Source: Sulfurimonas sp. HSL3-7
Lineage (GTDB): Bacteria; Campylobacterota; Campylobacteria; Campylobacterales; Sulfurimonadaceae
Assembly: GCF_039645985.1 (NCBI RefSeq)
Contig: NZ_CP147919.1
Coordinates: 992,001 to 1,056,000 of the forward strand
Direction of reading: 5' to 3'
Length of the DNA stretch: 64,000 bases
Of this stretch, positions 34,588-53,768 are shown in pieces. A program made the translations under genes and the position numbers. The first letter of the stretch is position 1, and each line of letters opens with the position of its first letter. The notes under the pieces are model-generated. The model searched no databases and was not told the origin of the DNA. It was given only the letters and a program-made list of their open reading frames with translations.

Positions 34588-34650
34588 GGGTAACGTTCAG
34601 AATGAGCACTCAAAAAGCCGCTTTCGCTTTTTGGTTGGTCGCCGATGGGG
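34588..34650 (-). repeat. attC of cassette C21 (degenerate right half)
   Basis: Left half GGGTAACGTTCAGAATGAGC and arm CAAAAAGCCGC match the main type. The right arm is altered after TTTTTGGTTGGTC, and a possible right box GTTAATG lies farther right, at about 34679-34685. Confidence 0.7.
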
Positions 34651-34656
34651 CGCTAT

Positions 34657-34854
34657 CTATTTTATTGCTTCTTTATCTGTTAATGCTCTACCAACCCACA
34701 CCTTTGCCTCTCTGGAACCAGCACTTAACGCAATTTCCCGCAATACTTTTTCTTCTACTTCGGATGCTTTTCTATCAATCATCTCTAGTGGGTGCATTAC
34801 GGCTATAGGACGCACTAGGCTTTTCGGAAGAGATTTGTCATACCCCAGAGTCAC
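34657..34854 (-). CDS. C21, gene 2: small protein of unknown function
   Basis: 65 residues, GTG start overlapping the stop of the lipoprotein gene (GTGA), so coupled translation is likely. Basic, without membrane helix; no family known. Its 3' end meets the attC, as in typical cassettes. Confidence 0.5.
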   Translation of the reverse strand: MTLGYDKSLPKSLVRPIAVMHPLEMIDRKASEVEEKVLREIALSAGSREAKVWVGRALTDKEAIK

Positions 34855-36075: not shown

Positions 36076-36147
36076 GTATAACGTTTAAAATGGGCAATCA
36101 AAAATCTACCCGTGGGTTATTGATTGTTCTTCACTGGCTTGTTATTT
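36076..36147 (-). repeat. attC of cassette C19
   Basis: GTATAAC left box; main-type arms in mutated form (GGGCAATCAAAAATCTACCC); right box GTTATTT. Confidence 0.8.
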
Positions 36148-36249: not shown

Positions 36250-36598
36250 GGAAACCAAAAAAACACCTGCGTCCAACAATGAGAAACTGCTCAAACGCTG
36301 GTCACAGTGGCTGGAGAAATGGCACTCCTGCATCGATGTAACGACAGCCGAGTCCCGCCAGAAACTATCGGAACAGATGAAGCAGGTGAACCCAAAATAC
36401 ACCCTGCGGGAGTGGTTCCTCGTCCCTGCCTATCAAGCCGCCGAAAAAGGTGACTATACGATCATCAAAGAGCTGCAGGAAGTGATGACAAAGCCCTATG
36501 ATGAGCAGTCAAAAGAGACAGAAGCAAAATACTACGCGAAAAAGCCTTCGCAGTTCTTCGATATCGCCGGGATATCCCACGTGAGCTGTTCGTCGTAA
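36248..36598 (+). pseudogene. selO: 3' fragment of selO (protein adenylyltransferase SelO/YdiU), inverted
   Basis: About 117 codons matching only the C-terminus of the SelO/UPF0061 family: NPKYTLREWFLVPAYQAAE, GDYTIIKELQEVM, PYDEQSKE and the terminal SCSS with the redox cysteine. The kinase-like AMPylation domain (the first three quarters) is missing, so the fragment cannot be an active enzyme. It is opposite in direction to nearly every other array gene. Confidence 0.85.
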
Positions 36599-36656
36599 GT
36601 TTCATCTGAATTACACCAGTCGAGATTTTAAGAGAAATCAACACTTTACGCATACA

Positions 36657-38414: not shown

Positions 38415-38486
38415 AGATAACGTCTGAAAGGGGCACTCAAAAAGCCGCCTGCGGGTTTTTGAGTGGTCTCCTTTGTTTTGTTATCT
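38415..38486 (-). repeat. attC of cassette C17
   Basis: Main type: AGATAAC ... GTTATCT, arms CACTCAAAAAGCCGCC / GGGTTTTTGAGTGG. The C17 stop lies in the right box; its 5' core is also GTTATCT. Confidence 0.9.
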
Positions 38487-39047
38487 ATATTGACTTTCCA
38501 TTTTTTCGAGAATTTGGTCTCTACTTTTTGTACTCGTATCCACGCCACCGAATATATTGAATGAGACCAATTTCATGCCGCAGAATTCTATTATTTGTTC
38601 TTTCCACATATTTTTCAGTCTTCTGTGCGCTCCAGTAATCATGTAGAGAAACCACGGTGCACCGGTCGTGGTAAAGATTTTCACTGTCTTACCATGAAGC
38701 AAACCTTTTGGTCTGGAGTTGACATATTCAAATGCAAAACCTTTGGAGAGATTCCAGTCAATGAAATTTTTCATGATTGCAGGCATACCGCCCCACCAAT
38801 AGGGAAATATAAATATAAGTTCGTCCGCACGGGAGATTTTATCTTGGAAATAGTGCATGGCATTTGTCGTTGTCAATGTATTGGGATCGTTAAAAGTAAA
38901 AAATGGTTGTTGATGTTCACATCGGTACAGATCGAGGAGATCAACCTGATGTCCTTTCTTGATCGATAGCCCTTTATACTTTTCTGCCATGGCAAATGAA
39001 AGGCTCTCTTGTTTGGGGTGTGCGACGATGATTAAAATATTTTTCAT
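38481..39047 (-). CDS. C17: flavodoxin-fold NAD(P)H (quinone) oxidoreductase
   Basis: About 188 residues, similar to KefF/MdaB-type enzymes: ILIIVAHPKQESLSFAM at the FMN-binding loop, IFIFPYWWGGMPAIMKNFIDWN and KTVKIFTTTGAPWFLY. It probably reduces quinones with NAD(P)H. The second of two ATG codons, at 39047, fits the AAGGAT site. Confidence 0.88.
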   Translation of the reverse strand: MKNILIIVAHPKQESLSFAMAEKYKGLSIKKGHQVDLLDLYRCEHQQPFFTFNDPNTLTTTNAMHYFQDKISRADELIFIFPYWWGGMPAIMKNFIDWNLSKGFAFEYVNSRPKGLLHGKTVKIFTTTGAPWFLYMITGAHRRLKNMWKEQIIEFCGMKLVSFNIFGGVDTSTKSRDQILEKMESQYR

Positions 39048-39068
39048 CATAATCCTTTTTGTGGGGTA

Positions 39069-39128
39069 AGATAACGTTAACCATCAGCCGCGCCGTATTT
39101 TGGCGTCGGCAGGATGGGCTTGTTAGCC
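39069..39128 (-). repeat. attC of cassette C16 (different type, 60 bp)
   Basis: AGATAAC and GTTAGCC end boxes enclose GCCGCGCCGTATTTTGGCGTCGGC, unrelated to the main attC type. Confidence 0.85.
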
Positions 39129-39138
39129 ATCGCTCACG

Positions 39139-40314
39139 TCAATCGCGAATAAACCAAAGGTGGTTGCCTTTTTTGTCTATGACTTCTTGAAGCATTCGGG
39201 AGTTTGGCGGCGCCCCATATCTTAATGAAAGATGCATGTCTGATACAAGGCTTCGATAATTTGCATAAAATGAGTGGCCAAAAAATTGATGGGATATTTC
39301 CTGCCTTGTATCTACCGTATCCATTCCATCAATAACAAAAAACTCTTTCGATGAGTCCCCTAGGCGAGCTTGGGCAGTACCTTCTATAAAGTAGTTGACT
39401 ATTTGTGACGAATCTAGGACGTGGTCATTCGCGGCAGAGTATAAAGTTATATTTTCTGCCATATTTTGAAAATTGTGTTTCGAAAAGCTCTGATAGTAGT
39501 CGTCTTTGGCAATGTCGGGTGCTGCAAGAATAATTTGTGCAAATATTTTTCCGTTATTTCGACTTCTTCTAAAAGAAAGAATATGGTCGTCTTTCGACAT
39601 GCGATCATCCAGTATCGCCAATGAATTCATTAATATATATGTGCCCATACTATGGGCGACAATGTGTATTTTCTTATCTGTTTTGCCGGCTATGTCTTGC
39701 AGGAAATTGGCGAAAAATACGAAATTTTCTCTCGCGCGATCTTTGTCCTTTGAATACGTTGCAGGATTTTCTTTGGAAGGCCAACTATAGAATATGGCCT
39801 CCCCATTAAAATTTGTATCGTGAGCGAGTTGAGCGCAACGAATTGCAGCATTCGAAAAAGAGGTATTGAAGCCATGTATGAATATTAATAAATCTCTTTC
39901 GGTTAACTCAGAAATAAACTTCTCCCAACCAATGTCATAGTCTAACGAAGACAGAGACATTCCGGATGTCCCGCCAACTTTTTTAATATAGGGTATCTTG
40001 ACTTTGGCTCTGCCATATTTAATGACTTGTGCGCTTTCACTATTTCCAGTATTTAATCGTAAAGGATCTTTCGCGCATTCAGTGTAATCAGCGAGACGGC
40101 CTTGACCTTCTGCATGGCCCAGATATTTCTGACATTTATCAGGTCTTGTTGTTCCAAAATGCACAGTCTTTTCATAAAAACTGTCTTTTGCTATCCAACC
40201 ATCACCGTCCAATTCCGTTGTTTGAGCCGGCTCATATCTTGTGCTGCACCCATAGATGGCCAAAACCAAGAGCAATACTGTTGCTTTATAAATATTTACA
40301 TAGAACTTCTGCAT
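39139..40314 (-). CDS. C16: lipoprotein alpha/beta-hydrolase (DUF900-like)
   Basis: 391 residues. Lipobox IYGCS (C23). The hydrolase core shows LIFIHGFNTSFSNAA, FYSWPSKENPATY, and the nucleophile elbow HIVAHSMGTYILMN (serine in AHSMG), all seen in DUF900 proteins. It is probably an exported esterase- or lipase-like enzyme; the substrate is unknown. Confidence 0.85.
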   Translation of the reverse strand: MQKFYVNIYKATVLLLVLAIYGCSTRYEPAQTTELDGDGWIAKDSFYEKTVHFGTTRPDKCQKYLGHAEGQGRLADYTECAKDPLRLNTGNSESAQVIKYGRAKVKIPYIKKVGGTSGMSLSSLDYDIGWEKFISELTERDLLIFIHGFNTSFSNAAIRCAQLAHDTNFNGEAIFYSWPSKENPATYSKDKDRARENFVFFANFLQDIAGKTDKKIHIVAHSMGTYILMNSLAILDDRMSKDDHILSFRRSRNNGKIFAQIILAAPDIAKDDYYQSFSKHNFQNMAENITLYSAANDHVLDSSQIVNYFIEGTAQARLGDSSKEFFVIDGMDTVDTRQEISHQFFGHSFYANYRSLVSDMHLSLRYGAPPNSRMLQEVIDKKGNHLWFIRD

Positions 40315-40332
40315 GTCATGTTTCCCTTCAAT

Positions 40333-40404
40333 AGCTAACGTTTACAATGTGCAATCAAAAAGCCGCCCGCGGGTTTGTGATTGGTCTCCACTTATTGGTT
40401 GGTT
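40333..40404 (-). repeat. attC of cassette C15
   Basis: Main type: AGCTAAC ... GTTGGTT. Its R'' partner does not match the 5' core of C15 (GTTAACG). Confidence 0.88.
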
Positions 40405-40417
40405 TCTTCCACCTTAA

Positions 40418-41071
40418 TCAAGAACGTTTTCCGTCAAGCCAATGGGCCACACCCGCAAGAAGGAAGTACATAACAAGCGCCGATATTGCCAGGGATGTTT
40501 TACTTTCTCCAAAAGGTGGCCCAAATATATTTACGGCATTGACTAGGAGCAGGATGATTACAAAGACACTCATGCCGTATTTCCCAATGGAGGATGTCGC
40601 TGTCGTAGCGCTCAGGTAGAGCCACAGCCCCCCGCCCAGGAGTGCCGCTTCAAGTGCGTATGTTGCAATCGCATTGTTCCATAAACCAAATCCCAGTTTG
40701 GTGGAGTCATCGTTCCAAAGCGGCAGATCCGGGGTATGAACGATCAGGTCTAGAAACCAATGCGACAGTACGGCAATTCCCATTACCAGTGCGATGGACC
40801 TGTTTCTCGGAGGAACGATGCGATAGATAACATAGATGAACCCCGCTAACAAGAAGGATGCAAGCAGGCTGTGCGTATAGGGCATGTACTCCAGCTCAAA
40901 GTGAGTCGACGGAGTGAAATTCTCGATAATATTTATTCTTTCTATCCCCAGAAGTACGAGCGGAAAGAAAAGAATGTCGATGAACTGAACTGCTAGAAAC
41001 AACATCCCGAGTGATGCTTTCTTCTCGACTTTTTTCAGAGCAAGACATGCTGCGTAGTGTCCAACAAACAT
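40418..41071 (-). CDS. C15: membrane-bound metal-dependent hydrolase-like protein
   Basis: 217 residues, five to six membrane segments with histidine/aspartate motifs GHYAACL, PYTHSLLAS and LSHWFLDLIVHTPD, as in the YdjM/DUF457 family of predicted membrane hydrolases. Function unknown. Confidence 0.75.
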   Translation of the reverse strand: MFVGHYAACLALKKVEKKASLGMLFLAVQFIDILFFPLVLLGIERINIIENFTPSTHFELEYMPYTHSLLASFLLAGFIYVIYRIVPPRNRSIALVMGIAVLSHWFLDLIVHTPDLPLWNDDSTKLGFGLWNNAIATYALEAALLGGGLWLYLSATTATSSIGKYGMSVFVIILLLVNAVNIFGPPFGESKTSLAISALVMYFLLAGVAHWLDGKRS

Positions 41072-41090
41072 CAGTCTGCTTCTCCTTTCG

Positions 41091-41162
41091 CGTTAACGTT
41101 TAAAATGAGCAATCAAAAAACAGCCTACAGGTTTTTGATTGGTCTCCTTTGAGTTGTTAGGC
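41091..41162 (-). repeat. attC of cassette C14
   Basis: CGTTAAC ... GTTAGGC, main type with a variant loop (AACAGCCTACAGG). Right box equals the 5' core of C14; it holds the gene's stop. Confidence 0.92.
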
Positions 41163-41852
41163 ATTTTTCAGCCTCAGCACCATCATTTTACTATGTAATT
41201 CTTTTTTTGATCTCCCCGCAGCCAATGCAGCTTCGACTTCTTTCTTGATCTCAGACGGGATGTTGCCTTTGGCCCAATTCGGCAGGTCGTCGTCAATTTC
41301 AAACGTTTCATCCGTGAAACCGAGTTTCCTATATGTCGTCCACGGCAGCCCTCCTGCCATTACAGAGAATGAAAAAAGACCATCAAGAGTTCCGGGGGCG
41401 ATCACGGCTTCGTAGTCATGCTCTTTCGCCCATTGAACAGACGCCTGGGCCAGAGCAGTACCGATTCCCCGACTGAAATAGCGCGAATCCGGGTCGTCGG
41501 AATGTGCAAAACTCTCGATAGAACGACCAACGTGAAAACAGGCATGGCACCAAACCGGACCGGAGATACCCAGGCGGCCATCAAGCAGACCGTCTACAAA
41601 GGAAGGGCGGTTCCAGGCCGGCCAGAGATCGGTGGACCCATGGGGAAGGATCAAACGGTAACAATGCAACTGGGCGATGCATTTGTCACCGTCCCACGCA
41701 CCGAACCCGATAACCTCTTGCGTCTTGAACAGCATCTCGATTCGGTAGCCGTCGGGTAGGCAGCGCATTAACACCTTGGCAAGGTCTTCACGTCGGATGG
41801 GCGACACATTAATTAAATTTCCGTTTGGTGATTTGGGGGTAATAATTTTCAT
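41157..41852 (-). CDS. C14: GNAT-like acetyltransferase
   Basis: 231 residues. DSRYFSRGIGTALAQASVQWAKEHDYEAVIAPG and a later YRKLGF fit the GNAT acetyl-CoA fold with extra N- and C-terminal parts. The substrate is unknown. The TAA stop is within the attC right box. Confidence 0.72.
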   Translation of the reverse strand: MKIITPKSPNGNLINVSPIRREDLAKVLMRCLPDGYRIEMLFKTQEVIGFGAWDGDKCIAQLHCYRLILPHGSTDLWPAWNRPSFVDGLLDGRLGISGPVWCHACFHVGRSIESFAHSDDPDSRYFSRGIGTALAQASVQWAKEHDYEAVIAPGTLDGLFSFSVMAGGLPWTTYRKLGFTDETFEIDDDLPNWAKGNIPSEIKKEVEAALAAGRSKKELHSKMMVLRLKNA

Positions 41853-41859
41853 GACTGAT

Positions 41860-41925
41860 GCCTAACGTCTGAGTTAACTTGACGGCGCGTTTTTTGCGCC
41901 GATCCGGTTTAATGATTTGTTATGT
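41860..41925 (-). repeat. attC of cassette C13 (different type)
   Basis: GCCTAAC ... GTTATGT enclosing GGCGCGTTTTTTGCGCC. Right box equals the 5' core of C13 exactly. Confidence 0.88.
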
Positions 41926-41971
41926 TCGTCTCGTATCCAAAAGCATATAAGGCTACTAGTCCAGACACTAG

Positions 41972-43306
41972 TTAACCTCCAAATGGATATTGTAAATTAA
42001 TTTCATAATTTAAGTTAACTGGATATTGAGATGTATGTCTCTGAAACCAACAAGACGCAGGATTGTACGGGTGATTGATATATTGGCCAGTTATTAACCA
42101 CCAGTACCCTCCTTGAACTTGTAAATCAGCGGTTCCTATATAATTCCCATCATCATTCAAAACGGTATTAATTGTTATAAAATGCTCAGGTAAATCAAAA
42201 AAATCAGTTTCTGATAAGCCCTTAAGAATATTAATAGTAATTATTGGTGGCGATGGTACTTGCTCTCCCATGGGATATACTCCTACATTTACTGTAATAA
42301 CAATACTATCTGGAATTGGTGGGAACTTTATAGGGCAATTCACTGAGTTTGTAGTTAATAGAGGAAAACTCTGTCCACTCAACGAAGAGCATGGTGCAGG
42401 TTTATCTTGGACAGCAGATAAAGACCAGCCTGATATCCTTTCGAACCTTCGTATAAAAACATGTTGCCCATTTGTATTTAATGCAGAAGTGAATTCTTGA
42501 TTCATCAATCCAGAATAAAGTGAATTGTTTTTTAGCCTTATTAATCTTGCTGGAGTAGGTATATCGTCATGGTTAGAAAATGCAAATGTAACTTCCGTAG
42601 TAGGTTCTTTTAAATCGAACAAGATGATTTTATTATGAAAATTATCGATCAATTTCTTATCTGCTGCTCTCTGCGGCATTCCAGGTAAAAACTCATTATC
42701 GGATATGACATTAACAATGCATTCCTCTGCTTTAAGAAGATGGAATATAAATGGTTCATCACCATTATGATTTCTTTCAATATAACCTTCATCGGTTTTA
42801 TTTTCTAGGTTATTATTTTCAGGCCAAGAACTAGACTTGAAGAAGCCAAACAATGAATTCGGTATCATTTTTGTTTTATTTATTTTTACACTAAATCTTG
42901 CGGGAACAATTTCATTATCAACAAATGTAGGTTGATCAAACACCCAATATTTAGATAACACTGTGATCTGTACTGGTTCACGAAGATCAATCGTATAACT
43001 TGCTGATTTTAAATATCCTGTGAATAGCCTAAAAACATCAACTTCTTTTTTATAATCACTAACACTGTCGATCCCAGTTTTTGCAATATAAATACTCCAC
43101 TTTGTATATGTGCTGAGGTGTAATATCGCTGTGGCGGTATCACCTGAAGTGTCTGGAACGGCTTCAACCGTAATTTTTTTTGCATTAGAAGGCAATGAGA
43201 TTTGAGGGAGCAAATCAGATTCGGCGATAGCAATTATTTTAAAAGTCTCATGCTTATAGGTACCAATTACTTTTATGGTGTTTGTCTTAAATTTATGTTT
43301 TATCAT
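41972..43306 (-). CDS. C13: large protein of unknown function
   Basis: 444 residues, rich in Ser/Thr/Asn/Pro and predicted mainly beta, without signal peptide. No domain recognised. AAAGGAAATT ribosome-binding site. An AT-rich gene. Confidence 0.7.
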   Translation of the reverse strand: MIKHKFKTNTIKVIGTYKHETFKIIAIAESDLLPQISLPSNAKKITVEAVPDTSGDTATAILHLSTYTKWSIYIAKTGIDSVSDYKKEVDVFRLFTGYLKSASYTIDLREPVQITVLSKYWVFDQPTFVDNEIVPARFSVKINKTKMIPNSLFGFFKSSSWPENNNLENKTDEGYIERNHNGDEPFIFHLLKAEECIVNVISDNEFLPGMPQRAADKKLIDNFHNKIILFDLKEPTTEVTFAFSNHDDIPTPARLIRLKNNSLYSGLMNQEFTSALNTNGQHVFIRRFERISGWSLSAVQDKPAPCSSLSGQSFPLLTTNSVNCPIKFPPIPDSIVITVNVGVYPMGEQVPSPPIITINILKGLSETDFFDLPEHFITINTVLNDDGNYIGTADLQVQGGYWWLITGQYINHPYNPASCWFQRHTSQYPVNLNYEINLQYPFGG

Positions 43307-43335
43307 CTTTAATTTCCTTTTCTGTTTTGATATCT

Positions 43336-43406
43336 ACATAACGTTTAAAATGAGCAATCAAAAAGCCGCCCGCGGGTTTTTGATTGGCTCCGCAGATTTG
43401 TTAGCA
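43336..43406 (-). repeat. attC of cassette C12
   Basis: Main type: ACATAAC ... GTTAGCA, arms intact, right half slightly altered (GGCTCCGCAGATTT). Right box does not fit the 5' core of C12 (GTTAGGC). Confidence 0.9.
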
Positions 43407-43769
43407 CCGTCAGCGCGGGCCCGGGACCAACCTCCAACTAACTGCGCTCTTTGTGTACCCATTTTTGACTTTTTAGACGTGCAGTTATTTAAGAGGCTAT
43501 ATGCCACCTATTCACCTTCGACAATCGGTTTTTAACTTGCGAAAAACCACTGCTGAGTTCACTTCAACATACAGGTTTCTCATTTTGGAGTAATATGTTG
43601 TTTAACTTGAATAACATATATAAACATAATAATAATTGTATTGTTAATATGACCTTATAATATAATGTTATATTTTACAGGTGATGTGAAGTTAGGATAG
43701 TCGCTAGAAATCGTTATAGTCTAATTTATATGATGTGTTTATTAAGGAGTTGGATTGTCCAATGGGGAG
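43407..43769. other. C12: cassette without an evident gene
   Basis: About 360 bp between two attC sites with no ORF of normal size on either strand. The left third is GC-rich (CAGCGCGGGCCCGGG); the rest is very AT-rich. It could carry a small RNA, a very short ORF or a deleted gene. Confidence 0.6.
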
Positions 43770-43841
43770 GCCTAACGTTTAAAATGAGCAATCAAAAAGC
43801 CGCTCGCGGGTTTTTGATTGGTCTCCTTTGGGTTGTTAGCA
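43770..43841 (-). repeat. attC of cassette C11
   Basis: Main type: GCCTAAC ... GTTAGCA. Right box equals the 5' core of C11 exactly. Confidence 0.95.
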
Positions 43842-43853
43842 TTGTTGCGATCA

Positions 43854-45002
43854 TTAGTAGTTGTCAAATTCAAAGTCATCAATAAAAAACTCGAGATTGT
43901 TTAAATAATCAAAATAAAAACCTCTGCCAATTTTATGATTAGCATTTGGATTCAAATAAGCGAAAGCTTTAATATTTTGATCTTTTGGTTCAGAAGAGGT
44001 GATTGATTGGTCTTCTAAAAATAAAACCCCTGATAATTGCTTTGTAATGTCAAAAATAGATTCTTGACCAGAATATTTTTTATAAATCACTTGTGCTTTT
44101 GTTGATTTTGAGGAGTAGTCACAAAAAAAACGCCGAGCAAAAGATCGATAAAATTTTTCATTTGAACTGTCCAAGTTTGAATTCAAAGCCCTCTCACTAA
44201 ACCATGGAAAAACAACAAAGACAATAAGACTTGGATTAACTCTTGAAAACTTTTTAGCGTGTTTAAAAAGTAATTTATAATGGTTCTTTGCATGTAAATA
44301 GGGATTATACGTACTTTCTGTCTTTGACATTCCAGTTCGCCATATGATTGCATATTTAAGATCAGAGACTATCATGCTCTTAATAAATACTGGCTCTTGT
44401 TGATTGTCAAGTTTAGTTAGTAATTCTTCGAGAAGCTTTTTTCTATTCTGTTCGAAAACTTCATAGTCTAGATCCAAAGGGTATTCTGGTGAAATTAAAA
44501 AATCAGTACGCCCCAACTTTTGTTGAACCTCTTTGAATATGCCTGATAAAATTTGGTCTGTTTTATCTGATAATATCTTTACATCAAAGTAAATGTTGAA
44601 GTCTTGATATTTACCGTCAAAATTTGCATGTTGATATCCAAGGTTTTGGGCGACTGTATCTGATGCTGGAACTGTTGTCTCAAGATCTATTGGTTCACTC
44701 ATTAAATTAGTATCTGAATTAAGAAAATCATATGCTACGAGTTCAGCATATGCGCCTTCCCAATTCTTTTGATCAGCAACTTGATTAATGGTATTTAGTA
44801 AATCTTGGAAGTTTTTATGTGACGAATAAAGGGTATTTAGCCTTTTTAATCGTTCTGTAAAAGAACTTGTAAAAGGGGTGAAGTTTGAACTATTTAAAGC
44901 ACCAATTACTTTATTTGTTGAGTTGTCTGTAATATCGAAAGTGCACGTACCTTGCCCGAAAATGCTTTCGACCAAGAGTTTATAGTTTTCCGTATCATTC
45001 AT
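43854..45002 (-). CDS. C11: PD-(D/E)XK-like nuclease, predicted
   Basis: 382 residues. WEGAYAELVAYDFL places E87 in a helix, and FNIYFDVKIL places D140-V-K142 on a following strand, the usual E...D-x-K pattern of restriction-like nucleases. The rest is unrecognised. By inference a defence or DNA-processing enzyme; the family could not be named. Confidence 0.6.
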   Translation of the reverse strand: MNDTENYKLLVESIFGQGTCTFDITDNSTNKVIGALNSSNFTPFTSSFTERLKRLNTLYSSHKNFQDLLNTINQVADQKNWEGAYAELVAYDFLNSDTNLMSEPIDLETTVPASDTVAQNLGYQHANFDGKYQDFNIYFDVKILSDKTDQILSGIFKEVQQKLGRTDFLISPEYPLDLDYEVFEQNRKKLLEELLTKLDNQQEPVFIKSMIVSDLKYAIIWRTGMSKTESTYNPYLHAKNHYKLLFKHAKKFSRVNPSLIVFVVFPWFSERALNSNLDSSNEKFYRSFARRFFCDYSSKSTKAQVIYKKYSGQESIFDITKQLSGVLFLEDQSITSSEPKDQNIKAFAYLNPNANHKIGRGFYFDYLNNLEFFIDDFEFDNY

Positions 45003-45016
45003 ATATTACCTTTAAT

Positions 45017-45088
45017 TGCTAACGTTTGAAATGAGCAATCAAAAAGCCGCCTGCGGGTTTTTGATTGGTCTCCTCTGATTTGTTATCA
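45017..45088 (-). repeat. attC of cassette C10
   Basis: Main type: TGCTAAC ... GTTATCA. Right box equals the 5' core of C10 exactly. Confidence 0.95.
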
Positions 45089-45499
45089 ATCTTGTACATT
45101 GCACAATTTTTTCATGTTGACAATGCCTTTGTCAATATTTATAGGCACACTTTTGAGTGATTCATCAATTGGACCATACCTCTTTTCGTTTATTTCATGA
45201 TATTTTTCTATTATTTCAAAAAGTTCTTTATCAAAAACGATGCATAAGGATTTATATTTATCAGTTTGTCCTGTCTTGCCTGCATCATGGAGAATGCCAT
45301 CTATATTGTCTCCTGTCATAGAAAGATCTAAAAAATTAGTGTCATTGTGGTCATATGCTATCAAGTTGTAGGCATCTAATTTCACTTGCGGTATCAATGC
45401 TTTCATACTTGCATAATCATATGTCAGCTTGTATGTAATGGCATTGGATGCCAGGAATAGAAAGAGAATTAAAGAGGTCAACTTTTTATTGAGCTTCAT
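45086..45499 (-). CDS. C10: small membrane-anchored or secreted protein
   Basis: 137 residues with an N-terminal hydrophobic segment (about 5-24), then a soluble, charged domain. No family recognised. ATG at 45499 follows GGAG; a longer frame would begin inside the neighbouring attC. Confidence 0.7.
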   Translation of the reverse strand: MKLNKKLTSLILFLFLASNAITYKLTYDYASMKALIPQVKLDAYNLIAYDHNDTNFLDLSMTGDNIDGILHDAGKTGQTDKYKSLCIVFDKELFEIIEKYHEINEKRYGPIDESLKSVPINIDKGIVNMKKLCNVQD

Positions 45500-45519
45500 A
45501 ATACTTGGTACTCCTTCAT

Positions 45520-45591
45520 TGATAACGTTTAAAATGAGCAATCAAAAAGCCGCCCGCGGGTTTTTGATTGGTCTCCTTTGCTTTGTTAGAC
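45520..45591 (-). repeat. attC of cassette C9
   Basis: Main type: TGATAAC ... GTTAGAC. Right box equals the 5' core of C9 exactly. Confidence 0.95.
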
Positions 45592-45594
45592 ATT

Positions 45595-46374
45595 TTACTC
45601 AATGCAACAATAGCCAATACCATGATCTTCTTTTCCATTTTCACTTAAAATAGGAAACATAAACCAGTCTCTTTCTGTTGTGTCTTCATCAACCACATAA
45701 TCAATTAGATTCGATATAAAGTATGAAAATGACAAATCATTGAGCTGATATATATTGAAAAATTTATTGCTAGTGCAATTATGATTATCATCCAGAGGGT
45801 GGTTTTCATCCCAGTATTTGATGAAAATATTACTGCCTAATGAAATGTGATTTATTTTACCGTTGCTGTTCTCTAACGCCCTTTTGATTGGAAGGCTTAC
45901 TGCATCATTGTGAACCAAAATGTTTTCATTATAGTTATACGAGAAAATGCCATTAAATATATTCGGATTCCCGATTAGATTCATATTGTTTTTTGATTTA
46001 ACTATGTAGTCGTTTAATTCACTATTTCTGATCGTAGTTTTAACTTCAATTATTGCTTTGACATTTTTTGGAGTGGTTATTATGAAATCACCTTCGTTAA
46101 ATAGAAGTGGATAGTTATTGTCATACAAGATAATGTCAATTTGTGTAGTCCGAGAATAAGTATTCTGGCCAGTTTCCGTAACAATAAAACCTGTACCGAT
46201 TGATATGTTTTTTGGCAAAAACCTTTTTATGATTTTTCTTAAAATTGCCTCTTTGTATGCACCATTTTCTCCATGGTGATTTGCATCTATATCTATTAGG
46301 TTGTCAACCCGATCTTTAATCAGTTCAAATTCTTTGTTTATAGATTCTTGGAATCTTAATGGATCGAATGGCAA
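45595..46374 (-). CDS. C9: DUF6602-like, PD-(D/E)XK-type protein
   Basis: 259 residues. NGAYKEAIL (E42), TTQIDIILYD (D80) and KAIIEVKTT (E110-V-K112) give a complete PD-(D/E)XK pattern; SIGTGFIV and GDFIITTPKNV match DUF6602-type proteins as I remember them. It is probably a nuclease-fold protein with a possible defence role. Confidence 0.68.
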   Translation of the reverse strand: MPFDPLRFQESINKEFELIKDRVDNLIDIDANHHGENGAYKEAILRKIIKRFLPKNISIGTGFIVTETGQNTYSRTTQIDIILYDNNYPLLFNEGDFIITTPKNVKAIIEVKTTIRNSELNDYIVKSKNNMNLIGNPNIFNGIFSYNYNENILVHNDAVSLPIKRALENSNGKINHISLGSNIFIKYWDENHPLDDNHNCTSNKFFNIYQLNDLSFSYFISNLIDYVVDEDTTERDWFMFPILSENGKEDHGIGYCCIE

Positions 46375-46396
46375 CTTTGTTCCTTTTACATAATGT

Positions 46397-46468
46397 GTCT
46401 AACGTCTAAAATGAGCAATCAAAAAGCCGCCCGCGGGTTTTTGATTGGTCTCCTTTGGTTTGTTAGCA
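46397..46468 (-). repeat. attC of cassette C8
   Basis: Main type: GTCTAAC ... GTTAGCA. Right box equals the 5' core at the other end of the two-gene cassette exactly. Confidence 0.95.
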
Positions 46469-46469
46469 T

Positions 46470-47195
46470 TTATAGCAATTGTTGCCATATAGTCACAATA
46501 GCAAAGATTAATACCGTAAAACCAAAGAATGCTTTTTTTGGCCAGACAATATGGATTAATCGTGCTAGCAAAACTGGAATAGCTATAACTACTGTTGATG
46601 CAAATGCGATAGCAGTAGTAAGCATCCAAGTGATTAAATAATAAATGGCGAATACTGATACGAAAAGCAAAGTGACCATAAAGCTAAATACAATTGGATT
46701 CATATCTTGTGTGATTTCGTATCCGAATGGGAGCGAAGTATTAGCTAAAGACTTAGTCAAAATAGGAATAAATGATGTGCCAAAAATAAAATCAAATGCA
46801 CCCATAAGTAATGGACTAAATACAAATAAAGCTGCTTGGGGCCCTATTTCAGAAATCGTTTTTTTATGCTCAGTAACCCATTTAATTGAAAACCAACTCA
46901 AGCAACTCCCGATCAGAAAAAGTGAAAATATATAAGCAAGTTCAGGATTTCGTATAGACAGGGCCCCCATAGAAAAAATCATCACTAAAGATACAAAGGC
47001 AAACCATCCATAAAATTTACGTAACACTATTAATCCATTGGATATAGTAGTCTCTTGCAGATTTTGATTAAATGATTGATAACCTTTTTCTAATTGTGCA
47101 ACAAAATCATCAACTTTTTTATTTTGTCGTGCTACTTCTCCTGCCCAATAAATTCCTATGAGCATTTGAATAATGTTTAAGATCAATTTCGTCAT
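46470..47195 (-). CDS. C8, gene 2: polytopic membrane protein
   Basis: 241 residues: a short hydrophobic N-terminus, a coiled-coil-like stretch, then about five to six membrane helices (between 50 and 241). No family recognised. It lies 22 bp after the HEPN gene with no full attC between them, so it probably functions with it. Confidence 0.7.
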   Translation of the reverse strand: MTKLILNIIQMLIGIYWAGEVARQNKKVDDFVAQLEKGYQSFNQNLQETTISNGLIVLRKFYGWFAFVSLVMIFSMGALSIRNPELAYIFSLFLIGSCLSWFSIKWVTEHKKTISEIGPQAALFVFSPLLMGAFDFIFGTSFIPILTKSLANTSLPFGYEITQDMNPIVFSFMVTLLFVSVFAIYYLITWMLTTAIAFASTVVIAIPVLLARLIHIVWPKKAFFGFTVLIFAIVTIWQQLL

Positions 47196-47210
47196 TTTTC
47201 ACTTCCAGTC

Positions 47211-47223
47211 TTATTTGTTAGCT
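47211..47223 (-). repeat. attC remnant between the two C8 genes
   Basis: TATTTGTTAGCTT is identical in form to the right end of a normal attC, with the HEPN gene's stop in the GTTAGCT box. The rest of the site is missing. Confidence 0.5.
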
Positions 47224-48471
47224 TCTTTCTGCTGTATCTTTTTCTATTACTTTGACAGCTAGCCAATGCATTAACCAAAATTCATGTCTTAAAATTTCTT
47301 CTTCTTTTGATGTGGGGACAAATCTTGGTGTTAAGCTACCTTTTCTGGTTTTTTTAGAGTGCATGCAAGCATTTCTTATTTCATAGACTCTATTTGAAAC
47401 TTCTGTACTGATGTCTGTAGAATTTAAATCGATTCCCTCAATCGTAATGCCGCTGGTCGTAATTTGTTCAGATGTAAGCGCACCCAAGATGCTAGGTGAT
47501 AGACTGGTGAGAAATGACAGAAGTTCGGAATCATCAATTGACCAAGCAAAGACAGCCTTAATCATCTCACGTTCAAATTTAGCATTAACTCCAATTTTTT
47601 GGGGGGCATCTTCAAAAAAGAATTCTAAAACATTATAGAGATTTCTAAACTGCGTTATCGGAGATTTATCACGTAATGCTGAGAAGAAGTATGCCAAGAG
47701 TTCTTTATCATGGTACTTCGTGGCTTCAATAACTTCTTGTTCTACTCGAAAATTATCTTTACTTGTTATTCCTCTATTAACAGCATAATAATTTTGATCT
47801 TCATTAAAATCTCTTGTGCTTACTACGTCGAACATCTGAGCCTGATGGAACGTCAGAACAGTTGGGTTAGCTTCGACCAAGGGTAAGCTGAACTTTCCAG
47901 TTCCTAGTGCACGGTGGTCTTCAACTTCAACTTCCACTGTTTTTGTAAATAGCTTTTTGAGGTCGCTAATATATTCTTCGAAGCTCCATTCTTTGTAGTT
48001 TTTTAATAAAAACCAATCATCAAAGCCCATGCCTGATTCTGAATCTCGACAACTGATGATGGATGAATCGTTTAAAGTGTCTAATGCTAAATACCTAACA
48101 TTCATTCGATCACAGAAAAAATATGGTTCATTGAGATCGTTTTTCCAATATGAGTAGTTCGTGATTTTACTGGTTATTTTTGATTCTGGATACTGCTTAG
48201 AATATTCAAATAGATAATTATCGATTAAATTTTCGATGAAATCATTGAGCTCTTCAGTAGTTTGAAATTCAGGCATGTCATCACGAGGATTTTCAAAACG
48301 AATTTTCATCACACAGTCCATTTCGTTTAGAAAGTAAAAGGGTTGAGCTGTAAAAACAGGTTCCCCTAATATAGAAGGAGTGAGAACCATTGGATGGCTT
48401 AATCCCTTAAAGAGAATGATTTTGCCTATACCTTTTGCATTTGTAAGTGTTGAGTCGAATGTGAGTGCCAT
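47218..48471 (-). CDS. C8, gene 1: HEPN-domain protein, predicted RNase-like
   Basis: 417 residues: an unknown N-terminal domain (1-260) and a C-terminal helical domain with NLYNVLEFF and the R366-N-x-x-x-H371 motif (IRNACMH), the HEPN signature of metal-independent RNases, as in ApeA-like proteins. Inferred to cleave or bind RNA. The downstream membrane protein is its likely partner. Confidence 0.65.
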   Translation of the reverse strand: MALTFDSTLTNAKGIGKIILFKGLSHPMVLTPSILGEPVFTAQPFYFLNEMDCVMKIRFENPRDDMPEFQTTEELNDFIENLIDNYLFEYSKQYPESKITSKITNYSYWKNDLNEPYFFCDRMNVRYLALDTLNDSSIISCRDSESGMGFDDWFLLKNYKEWSFEEYISDLKKLFTKTVEVEVEDHRALGTGKFSLPLVEANPTVLTFHQAQMFDVVSTRDFNEDQNYYAVNRGITSKDNFRVEQEVIEATKYHDKELLAYFFSALRDKSPITQFRNLYNVLEFFFEDAPQKIGVNAKFEREMIKAVFAWSIDDSELLSFLTSLSPSILGALTSEQITTSGITIEGIDLNSTDISTEVSNRVYEIRNACMHSKKTRKGSLTPRFVPTSKEEEILRHEFWLMHWLAVKVIEKDTAERS

Positions 48472-48505
48472 ATTTTTTCATCTTTTCTTGTCAAGTGGAT
48501 TGTAA

Positions 48506-48577
48506 TGCTAACATTTGAAATGAGCAATCAAAAAGCCGCTCGCGGGTTTTTGATTAGTCTCCTTTAGTTTGTTGGGC
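48506..48577 (-). repeat. attC of cassette C7
   Basis: Main type: TGCTAAC ... GTTGGGC. Right box differs from the 5' core of C7 (GTTAGGC) by one base. Confidence 0.95.
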
Positions 48578-48589
48578 AACTTCTGTTCT

Positions 48590-49330
48590 TTACTTATGGG
48601 CGACAACTATCAGTCGTCGACTTGTATTTTTGTCGTATGGTGCGAAGTCGAGGTCTCCAAGATAGTGGATATCTGAAAATCCCACATCGGAAAGAATCCT
48701 GTCCCAGTCATCTTTCAGGCGAATTGCAACATTTACGGTAGTATGGTTAAATTCACATTTATCTTCAGTGTGAACAAAATCGAAAATTTTGACCTGCATT
48801 ACGTTAGCTGAGTATTCCAATACGAATAAACGAGAGAAATCCCGATTATTGATGACAGGATCGTATCTCGGTGGATTCTTCATTGTTGCGTCGGACTGTC
48901 CTTGATCAAATACAAGAATACCACCCGGACGCAGTATAGCTTTCATGCTTTCAAGTGCGCGACGAACCTCTGACTCGTCAAGAACTTCGTTAATAGAATT
49001 AGTGAGACATACGACAGCGTCAAACTGTGTTTTGAAGTGTTTCTCAAGTTCTCGAAAGTCACTGTTGATCAGAGGTAAATCCAGACTAGCCTCTTTCAAA
49101 TTTTCATGAGCTTTTCTAAGCATTGCATTGGATAAATCCGAACCAATAACGCTATAGCCAAGCGAATGAAACATGATGAGGTCTTTGCCAGTTCCACATG
49201 CACAGTCAAGTACATCGGAGACGTTGTTCTTTTTAAAGAGTGTTTTAAAGAACACTTCTCGGGCCGGATCATGAATATTCATCCAATCATAGCGGTCGGC
49301 AAAGTCTTCGTACATATCGTTTTCGCTCAT
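48590..49330 (-). CDS. C7: class I SAM-dependent methyltransferase
   Basis: 246 residues with SAM motif I VLDCACGTGKDL, the acidic GSDLSNAML strand end, DAVVCLTNSINEV and LRPGGILVFDQG. Small-molecule type, resembling glycine/sarcosine N-methyltransferases; substrate unknown. It ends with the conserved basic RRLIVVAHK. Confidence 0.9.
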   Translation of the reverse strand: MSENDMYEDFADRYDWMNIHDPAREVFFKTLFKKNNVSDVLDCACGTGKDLIMFHSLGYSVIGSDLSNAMLRKAHENLKEASLDLPLINSDFRELEKHFKTQFDAVVCLTNSINEVLDESEVRRALESMKAILRPGGILVFDQGQSDATMKNPPRYDPVINNRDFSRLFVLEYSANVMQVKIFDFVHTEDKCEFNHTTVNVAIRLKDDWDRILSDVGFSDIHYLGDLDFAPYDKNTSRRLIVVAHK

Positions 49331-49342
49331 TTGTTCCTTTCT

Positions 49343-49411
49343 GCCTAACGTTTGTCGTGAGCAATATGAAGCCGTTTAGGATTCATATTGCGCTCCTCGT
49401 ACTTGTTAGAG
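49343..49411 (-). repeat. attC of cassette C6 (related subtype)
   Basis: GCCTAAC ... GTTAGAG; arms GAGCAATATGAAGCC / ATTCATATTGCGCTC. It shares GTCGTGAGCAAT and CTCCTCGTACTTGTTA with the C5 site. Right box equals the 5' core of C6. Confidence 0.92.
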
Positions 49412-49430
49412 GTCTATTTAGGTATATCAT

Positions 49431-49799
49431 TTATTTTGACCATATAAACAATTTTCTTTTTTCTTTTATCTCTTCATCTTCAGTAGAATATACCTTTTCG
49501 TATACATACAAGGCTATAAAAAGAACAACAGCAAATATGTGGGCTACAAGACCAAATAATGCCCATAGAATATTTTTTTGATTTAACTGTTTGGCTAAAG
49601 AGTATAGCCAAATGGCAATAACAATATTATCAATATTCTTAGCTAATATTCCAATTGGAATAGCAACATATGAAACTATCCAAGTAGGGTCTTCAATATT
49701 TCTTGCATATGTTGCAAATGCCATACCAATTGTAACAGTAAAAATATATGCTGGCATATACCAATAGATAAGTTTTTCTATCTCTTTACGTAAGTTCAT
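49431..49799 (-). CDS. C6: small membrane protein of unknown function
   Basis: 122 residues with about four hydrophobic helices and a basic, Glu-rich C-terminal tail (EEIKEKRKLF). No family recognised. Confidence 0.7.
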   Translation of the reverse strand: MNLRKEIEKLIYWYMPAYIFTVTIGMAFATYARNIEDPTWIVSYVAIPIGILAKNIDNIVIAIWLYSLAKQLNQKNILWALFGLVAHIFAVVLFIALYVYEKVYSTEDEEIKEKRKLFIWSK

Positions 49800-49806
49800 T
49801 ATGTTC

Positions 49807-49876
49807 CTCTAACGGTTGTCGTGAGCAATAATTTTCCTGCTAGGGTAAATTATTGGTCTCCTCGTACTTGTTATGT
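49807..49876 (-). repeat. attC of cassette C5 (related subtype)
   Basis: CTCTAAC ... GTTATGT; arms CAATAATTTTCC / TAAATTATTGG. Right box equals the 5' core of C5 exactly. Confidence 0.9.
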
Positions 49877-50143
49877 GTTTTTAACACCACTTTCAAATGT
49901 GTACCAAGATTGTTGAACATAAGACTCTGCCTCTAATTTGTTCATTACTCTTCCTGAAGCTTCTTCTGCGTATATTATTACTTCATCTAGTTTGTTTTTT
50001 AAATACGGATCATTAATATGGGCTTTAATTTGGGAAGCTTGAAACTTTAAACGACTTACTAAAGGTTGTGCTTCTTTTTTTGTGGGTGCATTTATAACTT
50101 CTTCGATAGATTTCCAAAGGTTAGCTAGTTCATCGGTGTTCAT
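49871..50143 (-). CDS. C5: small soluble protein of unknown function
   Basis: 90 residues, helical, charged. No family recognised. It ends within its attC. Confidence 0.65.
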   Translation of the reverse strand: MNTDELANLWKSIEEVINAPTKKEAQPLVSRLKFQASQIKAHINDPYLKNKLDEVIIYAEEASGRVMNKLEAESYVQQSWYTFESGVKNT

Positions 50144-50164
50144 TTATTTTATCTCCATTTGTAT

Positions 50165-50236
50165 ACATAACGTTTAAAATGAGCAATCAAAAAGCCGCTC
50201 GCGGGTTTTTGATTGGTCTCCTTTTGTTTGTTAGGT
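50165..50236 (-). repeat. attC of cassette C4
   Basis: Main type: ACATAAC ... GTTAGGT. Right box differs from the 5' core of C4 (GTTAGGC) by one base. Confidence 0.95.
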
Positions 50237-50254
50237 GAATTGTAACGCAACCCA

Positions 50255-50650
50255 TCATTGGGTATTCTCAATCCGAGTTTCCGGTGTTACCCAGCCAATC
50301 TCCGCACCGCCAGGATCGCGAATCCAAACGACACGACCAACACCGGGGACCACCCAGGGTGCTTTAAGTACTTGGCCTCCCAAACTTTCAATTCGACTAA
50401 TCGCTTTATCTAGGTCGTCAATGTGCACGTACGTCACCCAGCGGTCAGTATCACGAGAGTCATCAGTACCTTCTAGCTCGAGCACGCCACAAACAGGTTT
50501 CTCAGCTGATAAGCCAATCCAATAAGTACCTCCCGATGGCATTCTCTCCGCGCGGAACTCCCATCCAATGGTTTCATGATAGAAACGAATAACTTTATCT
50601 ACATGGTGCGTTTGAAGTTCATTCCAGTTGAATTCTCCATGCTTGGACAT
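50255..50650 (-). CDS. C4: VOC/glyoxalase-fold protein
   Basis: 131 residues with paired beta-alpha-beta-beta modules: WNELQTHHVDKVIRFYHETIGW and YVHIDDLDKAISRIESLGGQV, then VVWIRDPGGAEIGWV. Resembles glyoxalase/bleomycin-resistance-type proteins, a frequent cassette product. Substrate unknown. Confidence 0.9.
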   Translation of the reverse strand: MSKHGEFNWNELQTHHVDKVIRFYHETIGWEFRAERMPSGGTYWIGLSAEKPVCGVLELEGTDDSRDTDRWVTYVHIDDLDKAISRIESLGGQVLKAPWVVPGVGRVVWIRDPGGAEIGWVTPETRIENTQ

Positions 50651-50663
50651 GATTCTCTCCTTC

Positions 50664-50735
50664 GCCTAACGTTTAAAATGAGCAATCAAAAAGCCGCCCG
50701 CGGGTTTTTGATTGGTCTCCTTTGGTTTGTTATAC
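50664..50735 (-). repeat. attC of cassette C3
   Basis: Main type: GCCTAAC ... GTTATAC. Right box equals the 5' core of the two-gene cassette C3 exactly. Confidence 0.95.
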
Positions 50736-50739
50736 ACAA

Positions 50740-51168
50740 TTAACCTTCGTATACTAATTTTTTTACAGGTTTACGTTTACCTGCAATATATAAATTTAAA
50801 TACAAGCGTTTACCACCAAGTGCTTTATGTCCCCATGCAAAGTACTTAGGGCCACTAAAATTTAATTTTATGCTTGAATGTCCAGCAATGTAAATATCAC
50901 TAGTACCGTCTGCTGGATTTTCATTTCTATAAGGCACCCATTTAAAAGCTTTTTTTTCACAAAACAATAATTCCCAGTAAGTTACGGTCATTGGCTTATC
51001 GGAGAGGTTCCTGATGATTATGTCGTTTCCAATTTCAGGTAGTCCTACAAAGTTATAACTTACTTCGATACGACGTCTTGAAGACCAAAGTTCCCATATT
51101 TTAATCAAGGCCAACAGGGTGGAAAGCCCTGCACCCCATATTGCAATTAACTCTTTAAAGATTTCCAT
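50740..51168 (-). CDS. C3, gene 2: membrane-anchored protein of unknown function
   Basis: 142 residues: an N-terminal hydrophobic helix (about 7-25) and a beta-rich soluble domain (DIIIRNLSDKPMTVTYWELL). No family recognised. It is in the same cassette as the gene at 51205. Confidence 0.65.
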   Translation of the reverse strand: MEIFKELIAIWGAGLSTLLALIKIWELWSSRRRIEVSYNFVGLPEIGNDIIIRNLSDKPMTVTYWELLFCEKKAFKWVPYRNENPADGTSDIYIAGHSSIKLNFSGPKYFAWGHKALGGKRLYLNLYIAGKRKPVKKLVYEG

Positions 51169-51204
51169 AATTGAAGATTTCTACCTTTAATTTGATACAT
51201 TTTA

Positions 51205-51657
51205 TTAAGACTGAAAATATGGAACTTCTCTTACACCATAAAAGGGAAGTTTTGCCATGAAAATCGCTACATATTTATTTCTAATAAAATCAACTTTTGC
51301 TTCTATTGTTTGTTCGGAAGGTTTTTTGTCATATCTGTTTAATCTAATTTCAATACCTTCATATTTTGTATCCATTCTAGGAATGGCGGTGACATGGAAT
51401 CCAAACTTGTCATAGACAAATACCCAGTCTTTTGCTTTTGGAATCTGAAAATATAGAGTTCCATCTTCAGCAACTTCATAGCTCGCCTTGTTAGAACCAA
51501 GCTCATATTCAACTTGATTTTTTCGTAAATCTCTAAATTTAATATCAACTAATGTTCCTACTACTGATTTTAACTCCGAAGTGATTTTAAAACCTTCATA
51601 GATTTTATAAAACACATACGCTACTACTATCGCTCCAATAAATGCGAAAAACTCCAT
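51205..51657 (-). CDS. C3, gene 1: membrane-anchored protein of unknown function
   Basis: 150 residues with an N-terminal membrane helix (about 1-20) and a soluble mixed domain. No family recognised. The 36 bp to the next gene contain no attC. Confidence 0.65.
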   Translation of the reverse strand: MEFFAFIGAIVVAYVFYKIYEGFKITSELKSVVGTLVDIKFRDLRKNQVEYELGSNKASYEVAEDGTLYFQIPKAKDWVFVYDKFGFHVTAIPRMDTKYEGIEIRLNRYDKKPSEQTIEAKVDFIRNKYVAIFMAKLPFYGVREVPYFQS

Positions 51658-51672
51658 TAGCTTCCTTCTTGT

Positions 51673-51745
51673 GTATAACGTTTGAACGCACCAATAAGAA
51701 ACCTGCTCGCAGGTTTCTTATTGGTAGTGCCGTGATTTGTTAAAC
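51673..51745 (-). repeat. attC of cassette C2 (different type)
   Basis: GTATAAC ... GTTAAAC; long perfect arms CCAATAAGAAACCTGC / GCAGGTTTCTTATTGG. Right box equals the 5' core of C2 exactly. Confidence 0.93.
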
Positions 51746-51754
51746 ACCTAAAAC

Positions 51755-52057
51755 TTATTCTATTCCCCAATATTTTTTGTCTTGAGGCGATAATGTGGAA
51801 TACACATCATTTAAGACGTTGCTCAGTTCAGAACTGACATTGCCGAAACTACGATAATTTGTAAGAATATATCTTCTCACTGTATTAGGCCATTTTCCTA
51901 GTGCGTGTGCAGTTGAAATAATTCCTTTTGCATCGTGATAACTGGTATTTTTCCTAATTTCACTAAGCCTATTTTCAAAATGACCATAAGTCCATTCATC
52001 TGTTCTTTGTTCAAACTCATTTAGCAGACGTTCTTTGTATTGCGCAAGTTTTGGCAT
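51755..52057 (-). CDS. C2: small protein of unknown function
   Basis: 100 residues, charged, no membrane helix, mainly helical with a WTYGHFENRL segment. No family recognised. Confidence 0.65.
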   Translation of the reverse strand: MPKLAQYKERLLNEFEQRTDEWTYGHFENRLSEIRKNTSYHDAKGIISTAHALGKWPNTVRRYILTNYRSFGNVSSELSNVLNDVYSTLSPQDKKYWGIE

Positions 52058-52073
52058 GATCTTTTTCCTTTAT

Positions 52074-52145
52074 GTTTAACGTTTAAAATGAGCAATAAAA
52101 AAGCCGCCTGCGGGTTTTTGATTGGTCTCCAGAGTATTGTTATAC
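52074..52145 (-). repeat. attC of cassette C1
   Basis: Main type: GTTTAAC ... GTTATAC with one changed arm base (AATAAAAAAGCC). Right box equals the attI-side core exactly. Confidence 0.95.
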
Positions 52146-52197
52146 TTACCAAAATTTAAATGATTTTACTGATTGAAGTTGAGAAAGTGTTGAGTAT

Positions 52198-52536
52198 TTA
52201 AATCTTTGCAACTGCATAAACAGTCAACGACACTCTTGATTCACAATGTCTTCTTCTATCCGGCCAATCATCTTGCCATTTAGAAACTTGCCAGTACATT
52301 TGTGTACACCCTGCATGTAGAGTATTTTCTTTTCCGTATCTTTCCTCTGTTGTTTTTCTTAATTGATCGATTAGCCCATTACGTAGTTGTATACACCTGT
52401 TTTTATCACAGCCTGTAACTCCACTCGAGCTCAAAGTGTCACTTAGATATTCTATTTTAAGTGACTCCCCCTGTGAGATTCGTGCTTTAAACTCAGTTAA
52501 TTGATTCTCTTCTACCGGATATGTTTCTAATTGCAT
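52198..52536 (-). CDS. C1: small cysteine-containing protein of unknown function
   Basis: 112 residues, the cassette nearest intI and hence probably the last acquired. It holds CDKNRC plus two later cysteines (AGCTQM and RRRHCES), suggesting disulfides or metal binding. No family recognised. GGAG lies just before the ATG. Confidence 0.65.
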   Translation of the reverse strand: MQLETYPVEENQLTEFKARISQGESLKIEYLSDTLSSSGVTGCDKNRCIQLRNGLIDQLRKTTEERYGKENTLHAGCTQMYWQVSKWQDDWPDRRRHCESRVSLTVYAVAKI

Positions 52537-52559
52537 TAGTTTGTCTCCTTCTATATGCA

Positions 52560-52625
52560 GTATAACTATTTATTGGTGCACATTTTATACAACTAATGCT
52601 TAAATACGAACTTAGTAAAACTTAT
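52560..52625 (-). other. Predicted attI recombination site
   Basis: On the - strand GTTATAC (52560-52566) marks the 5' edge of cassette C1 and equals C1's own R'' partner in its attC. This fixes the crossover point of attI; how far attI extends toward intI is inferred. Confidence 0.6.
52584..52612 (-). promoter_or_regulatory. Candidate cassette promoter (Pc)
   Basis: A TATAAAAT -10-like element at 52582-52589 (- strand) directs transcription into cassette C1; the -35 region is weak. Pc is normally in attI or intI; inference from position and sequence. Confidence 0.35.
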
Positions 52626-52788
52626 GAAATATTGTAAAAAACTGTTATTTTGTTACAGAATGTCATATTTGTATGCTTTTCAGTCTAAAAAGGCGTACAT
52701 TAGCTCTTAGATGAAGTGTACTAAGTAATGAAAATGGACTTAGTTGAACACTTTTGCAGTACTAAGTTCAGATTTAGGACTTAGGTGA
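52609..52788. promoter_or_regulatory. Cluster of ACTTAG/ACTAAG repeats between attI and intI
   Basis: ACTTAG or its partner form GTACTAAG occurs at 52610, 52718, 52739, 52759 and 52780, in mixed orientation and close spacing. This fits either integrase-binding direct repeats of attI or binding sites for an intI regulator. No LexA-type box was seen. Confidence 0.4.
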
Positions 52789-52805
52789 CATTCAGGAGAG
52801 TGATT

Positions 52806-53768
52806 ATGAAGAAAAAGCTACTTGACATTACACGCGATAAGATCAGACTGAAACACTACAGTATGAAAACGGAACAGAGTTATGTAGGCTGGATAAAGCA
52901 GTACATCTTTTTTCATAACAAACGCCATCCTATAGAGATGGGGAAAAGTGAGATAGAGCAGTTTTTAACACATCTTGCAGTCAATAGAAAAGTTTCGCCT
53001 ACGACACAGAATCAAGCCTTTTATGCCATTGTGTTTTTGTATGGAGAGGTGCTTGGTGTTGACATGAAAAGTCAGAATATTCAAGCGCTTCGGGCGCAGG
53101 AACGCAAACATATCCCTGCTGTTTTGACCAAAGAAGAAGTCGCATTGATCCTGGCAAATCTAAACGGTATATATGAGCTGATGGTCTCATTGATGTATGG
53201 TTGTGGGCTGAGAATGCAGGAAGCATTAAACCTCCGTGTAAAAGACATCGATTTCGGTTTTGACAAGATATATGTCTTTAATTCCAAGTCAATGACAGAC
53301 AGAACACTGCCCCTGCCACAAAAGCTGAAAGAGCGGTTGAAACGGCAAGTTGAAAAAGTAGAGCAACTGCACAGAGGTGACAGTGAAGCAGGGTATGGAT
53401 CGGTCTATCTGCCGCATGCACTGGAAAAGAAGTTTCCAAAAGCAAAGTACGAGACAAAATGGCAATATCTGTTTCCCGCCCGTAATATAGCCAACGATCC
53501 CAGAAGCGGTGTCGCTCGCCGTCATCATCTTCATGCGCAAACATTGGGACGGGCCATCAAGGTCGCAGCGCAAAAAGCCAATATACATAAACGTGTGACA
53601 TCGCACATCTTCCGACACTCCTACGCGACGCATCTGTTGCAGGCAGGCATAGACCTGCGTTCCATACAGGAGCTGCTTGGGCACAAAAGCGTTGAAACGA
53701 CAATGATCTATACGCATATTGTGGCGGAGATGAACAAAGGCAGGGTGGCCAGTCCGCTGGATATGTAG
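52806..53768 (+). CDS. intI: Integron integrase (IntI)
   Basis: 320-residue tyrosine recombinase that inserts and excises cassettes at attI and attC. Catalytic residues: R in [19 protein letters not shown]-x-x-R in [14 protein letters not shown] in [15 protein letters not shown] and the nucleophile Y in the last motif. The IntI-specific patch is present ([23 protein letters not shown]), which separates it from XerC/D and phage integrases. The ATG at 52806 has AGGAG 7 bp upstream. It diverges from the cassettes as in all integrons, and appears full length and intact. Confidence 0.96.

Follow-up and report, generated by a model that had tools for sequence, protein, structure and literature searches.

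This locus raises the question whether the core boxes between gene cassettes record, cassette by cassette, where a former circle was opened. The window, a 64,000-nucleotide stretch of the complete 2.87 Mb genome of Sulfurimonas sp. HSL3-7, contains an integron integrase gene (intI, 52785..53768, plus strand; TIGR02249 match), which is the sole full intI match in the genome. Its likely start is the ATG at 52806, after AGGAGAG, and the frame is intact (327 aa). The product scores 408.9 bits against TIGR02249 (cut-off 265). Among solved structures its best relative is VchIntIA/IntI4 (2a3v, E 3e-82), to which the IntI-specific insertion aligns, as befits a tyrosine recombinase that carries this IntI-specific domain. 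Its relatives are from Campylobacterota, for example Sulfurovum and Sulfurimonas.

The adjoining attI site (52560..52630, minus strand) has the core GTATAAC at 52560-52566 and the conserved motif AACTATTTATT-N6-CATTNTA. Conservation extends to the relatives: in most of their loci the motif precedes intI by about 240 bp, with a spacer of five to seven bases (AACTATTTATT-N(5-7)-CATTNTA), and of the 71 related loci whose upstream sequence is long enough, 64 have the AACTATTTAT core. The attI core forms the right-hand boundary of the first cassette, whose R'' matches it exactly. Leftwards, 17 attC sites were located from the sequence and aligned (38419-52145). They carry R'' and R' boxes, have a folding bottom strand and share their sequence, many being 97-100% identical to a single consensus, with largely intact cores. 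The cassette ORFs all lie on one strand, opposite to intI, and point away from attI. The region is a cassette array belonging to a chromosomal integron of a Campylobacterota bacterium. A search of the whole window against Rfam at gathering thresholds gave no match.

Cassettes were numbered from the attI end, with C1 adjoining attI and C17 leftmost, all on the minus strand. Over seven bases, 12 of the 17 have a 5' core that agrees exactly with their own R'': C1 (52080..52565; ORF 52198-52536; attC 52074-52145), C2 (51679..52079; ORF 51755-52057), C3 (50670..51678; two ORFs, 50740-51168 and 51205-51657; agreement to 11 bases), C5 (49813..50170; ORF 49871-50143), C6 (49349..49812; ORF 49431-49799), C8 (46403..48511; two ORFs, 46470-47195 and 47218-48471; exact over 9 bases), C9 (45526..46402; DUF6602 ORF 45595-46374, PF20247), C10 (45023..45525; ORF 45086-45541 as listed; exact over 9 bases), C11 (43776..45022; ORF 43854-45002), C13 (41866..43341; ORF 41972-43306), C14 (41097..41865; GNAT-like ORF 41157-41852; exact over 9 bases) and C17 (38421..39074; flavodoxin-like ORF 38481-39050, PF02525). 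One base is off in C4 (50171..50669; glyoxalase-like ORF 50255-50650, PF00903), C7 (48512..49348; methyltransferase ORF 48590-49330, PF13649) and C16 (39075..40338; DUF900 hydrolase ORF 39139-40314, PF05990), which brings the cassettes within one base to 15 of 17. Core matching does not support the boundaries of C12 (43342..43775; about 430 bp, no clear ORF), two bases off, and C15 (40339..41096; ORF 40418-41071), four off; both probably have broken or fused ends. The two genes of C8 behave as one unit, since their cassette is exact over 9 bases. A GTTAGC at 47217-47222 overlaps the stop codon of the second C8 ORF; it could be a remnant R'' or have arisen by chance.

This tally is the one given by an earlier sequence-only reading, which had also proposed shuffled pairings as a check. 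In 100,000 shuffles the mean was 1.36 exact pairs and the maximum 7, so none reached the observed 12, and the true pairs had 9 mismatches in total, whereas shuffled ones averaged 34.8 and had at least 18. Since G-T-T is constant and base 4 mostly so, the signal lies in bases 5, 6 and 7, which agree in 94, 88 and 76% of true pairs versus 41, 28 and 28% in other pairings; base 8 still agrees in 71% versus 33%, and base 9 weakly. That all boxes of one array are merely alike (GTTAGNN, GTTATNN), without any relation to the cassette's own circle, has in its favor that nearly all of them share G-T-T, mostly with A as the fourth base, but it is refuted, and left with practically no chance, by shuffles that keep composition and still average 1.36 exact pairs rather than 12. 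In integrons, R'' reportedly matches the cassette's own 5' end (Hall, Stokes and colleagues).

A second possibility is that R'' is selected to pair with the neighboring R' in the array and not with the cassette's own 5' end. In its favor, IntI is established to use the folded attC in the array for excision. However, the in-array R' partner was exact in only 1 of 17 cases, no better than shuffled. Folding of the bottom-strand attC gave the same answer, with a mean of -17.4 kcal/mol with the cassette's own core against -14.7 kcal/mol both with the in-array core and with other cores, chosen at random. The observed gain of own over other cores was 2.6 kcal/mol, with better folding in 15 of 17 cassettes, and the own core ranked first or second among 18 cores in 15 of 17, the exceptions being C12 and C15 (each rank 7 of 18). 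Selection on the circular form predicts just such an advantage, and we consider selection for in-array pairing very unlikely. Where the attC stem has changes on both sides, pairing is kept in 7 of 10 pairs.

In matching the cassettes' own 5' ends and not the in-array R', the boxes fit circular cassettes cut at G/TT, as the earlier reading had claimed. Established integron biology supplies the circles and the enzymology of the following scheme. Each cassette would once have been a circle whose attC bottom strand folds as a hairpin, with R'' paired to an R' formed by the cassette's own first bases. IntI would cut this R' at G/TT and join the circle to attI. Insertion would then open the circle at G/TT, so that the first seven bases stay the reverse complement of the R'' near the other end. 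We hold it to be nearly certain that the array is a chromosomal integron and that the match between own core and R'' stems from circular cassettes opened in this manner. Core matching would then record past circular forms, present mobility being a separate matter.

The same reading had stated that the boxes prove individual boundaries, which is too strong: matching supports them for most cassettes and fails to do so for C12 and C15. In the fetched loci of relatives, no homologous stretch longer than 110 bp was found that could be a second copy of a window cassette, so it is the cores by themselves that mark the boundaries in the window. The given range, C1 to C17, stops short of the array's end. 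To the left follows C18 (36082..38420, minus strand; RCC1-repeat ORF 36785-38290; attC 36076-36147), whose attC scores 64.6 bits with an attC covariance model and whose R'' GTTATTT is one base off its own core GTTATCT. Beyond it the array decays, with two attC remnants on the minus strand (33478-33543 and 34588-34658) that match the model weakly and have lost the R' or R'' triplet. Also near the distal end, a 330-bp stretch (36273-36602) is 88% identical to a stretch near the distal end of another array of the genome (array D, L003 8317-8646).

A covariance model built from the 17 window attC was used to search the whole genome. In addition to the window array (array A), attC were found in five further places, namely arrays B (1307 kb, L001), C (1446 kb, L002), D (1522 kb, L003), E (1852 kb, L004) and F (1564 kb, L005). 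A single weak attC-like site (L006, G000:C1:1116970-1117041, 37.5 bits) lies away from all arrays. The genome therefore has six cassette arrays and one intI, located at array A, and each of arrays B to F has at least two attC without intI nearby. All six arrays are nevertheless headed by an attI-type site (AACTATTTATT-N6-CATTNTA with 0-2 mismatches), and none of B to F has a head unlike attI. Arrays A, B and F have no mismatch, C and D have one, in the AAC/GTT core, and E has two; the assignment in E draws also on its position at the array head, because a search with three mismatches allowed gives chance hits (9 in the reversed control). In array F, similarity to the spacer between attI and intI extends beyond attI (228 bp, 73%), as does the mutual similarity of arrays B and C. 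Beside the five intI-less attI sites of the genome, no intI remnants were found. Next to the attI of array B lies a fumarylacetoacetate-hydrolase-like ORF (L001 7032-7460) whose C terminus appears to have been cut off, as would result from insertion of the platform at this point; visual inspection of the sequence past the array did not reveal the lost portion.

Across the six arrays, 20 of 34 cassettes were exact against 1.9 expected, a count for which the array F pairs were read from the sequence and two repeat copies of a 182-bp cassette were omitted. In a small set of relatives' cassettes, 6 of 20 were exact versus 3.9%, with a crude attC finder that gave 83 hits versus 23 in reversed sequence.

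The 182-bp cassette, which has no ORF, occurs three times in array F (L005 4604-4785, 8272-8453 and 10490-10671). The copies are identical throughout their 182 bases, which run from the TT that follows G up to the last G, and are flanked by unrelated sequence on the left and by different cassette starts on the right. The identity stops exactly at G/TT, which is direct proof of the boundary, and this triplicated cassette alone shows the G/TT boundary directly. It has a strong 5' hairpin, and its own core pairs with an R'' only about 20 bases away. The nearest copy in the same genus is 92% identical. Relatives have similar cassettes; of 110 distinct attI heads, 16 have one immediately at attI, versus 0.5% with swapped cores. 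A function as promoter, terminator or spacer is conceivable.

The alternative that survives best is that the array is a relic whose boxes are fossils of old integration, the other five arrays being decayed integrons. It would account for the attI mutations in arrays C, D and E, which in C and D affect the GTT core, for the low share of exact cassettes there (2 of 9), and for the decayed left end of the window array. Against it stand the intact IntI frame, the near identity of many window attC to one consensus with their cores largely preserved, and the three identical cassettes in array F, compared with 92% in the nearest congener copy. On balance we consider a relic unlikely, and retain a chromosomal integron with cassettes derived from circles as the preferred reading.

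The arrays with intact attI contained 18 exact cassettes out of 25 versus 2 of 9 in those with mutated attI (Fisher p 0.017), a comparison chosen after seeing the data; with B and F alone it was 6 of 8 versus 2 of 9 (p 0.057). This contrast, together with the identical triplicate in array F, hints that the attI sites of B and F may still be acted on in trans by the single IntI. The pattern in B and F could also stem from recent loss of intI or from gene conversion. More generally, one IntI might load cassettes in trans into intI-less platforms at recurrent loci, most of which would have lost intI and kept attI, in genomes of the Sulfurimonas/Sulfurovum type. We put this forward tentatively, as a possible but somewhat doubtful extension. 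If true, these platforms would together make up a single dispersed integron of the genome, having several cassette heads and several local contexts.

In 151 genomes of the family, a stricter attI pattern gave 114 sites versus 1 in the reversed control. Beside them, intI was intact in 16 cases, broken in 7 and not detected in 91, the last number being inflated by contig ends and by the threshold of the intI list. Among 59 intI-less attI regions that were fetched, 25 had an attC whose R'' was exactly the one predicted, whereas swapped cores gave 4%, and seven intI-less attI loci of relatives held intI fragments. The neighbors of three arrays in the genome under study are informative about origin: dnaJ, acnB and truD adjoin arrays F, D and E, and in relatives (L020, L038 and L031, respectively) a complete intI lies 20, 102 and 91 bp from these genes. 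Identity to those relatives is 70% for DnaJ and AcnB and 41% for TruD, and in the case of array D the relative has the attI as well. These neighborhoods suggest that the intI copies of F, D and E were probably lost in place, and the three arrays are most simply old integron platforms; the evidence favors such loss over off-target insertion. A distant match to ygjP, the gene beside array C, next to an intI (L103, 32% identity) was in the other orientation and was not counted. Certain genes neighbor intI repeatedly among the relatives' intI loci (L010-L108), giving groups of 19, 13 and 5 loci (some of them the same genome fetched twice), which suggests fixed integron platforms in the family.

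Multiple and broken intI per genome are already known (PMC2426708). Integrons are likewise known in Campylobacterota, which PMC8618304 lists; as summarized in that paper, Cury et al. proposed three routes to CALIN, among them intI loss. Our literature search, which covered few subscription journals, found nothing on the attI of these bacteria, nor on a single IntI that serves several attI. The core-box rule is textbook knowledge, so its recovery confirms rather than surprises; the interest lies in intI-less platforms that keep attI, as these sites bear on how integrase-less cassette clusters arise. The rule is also a practical tool: given the bases next to any attI, one can predict which R'' has to follow, and in unannotated genomes such predictions locate cassettes ten times as often as the background.

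Among known systems, the window integron resembles the sedentary chromosomal integrons (Vibrio-type, TIGR02249) in its intI, in cassettes pointing away from attI, in RYYYAAC and GTTRRRY boxes, which are cut between the first and second base of R' (PMC12901181), in ORFs of one direction and in R'' matching the own 5' core. Unlike the Vibrio type, the host belongs to the Campylobacterota, attI has the motif described above, and R-box agreement often extends over 8-9 bases, not 7. The five further attC clusters are like CALIN in lacking intI nearby, but they keep an attI-type head, whose GTT core is mutated in two of them, and three of the clusters lie where relatives carry intI. Cassettes away from intI also recall insertion at attG, the non-classical genomic sites; however, attG diverges from classical sites (PMC12901181), whereas the heads found here are attI-like. 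Finally, attI-derived sequence away from intI is shared with the Delta-attI cassettes of class 1 and 2 integrons (PMC12901181), but there attI remnants end a cassette, whereas here attI heads the array, with the upstream region kept in several cases.
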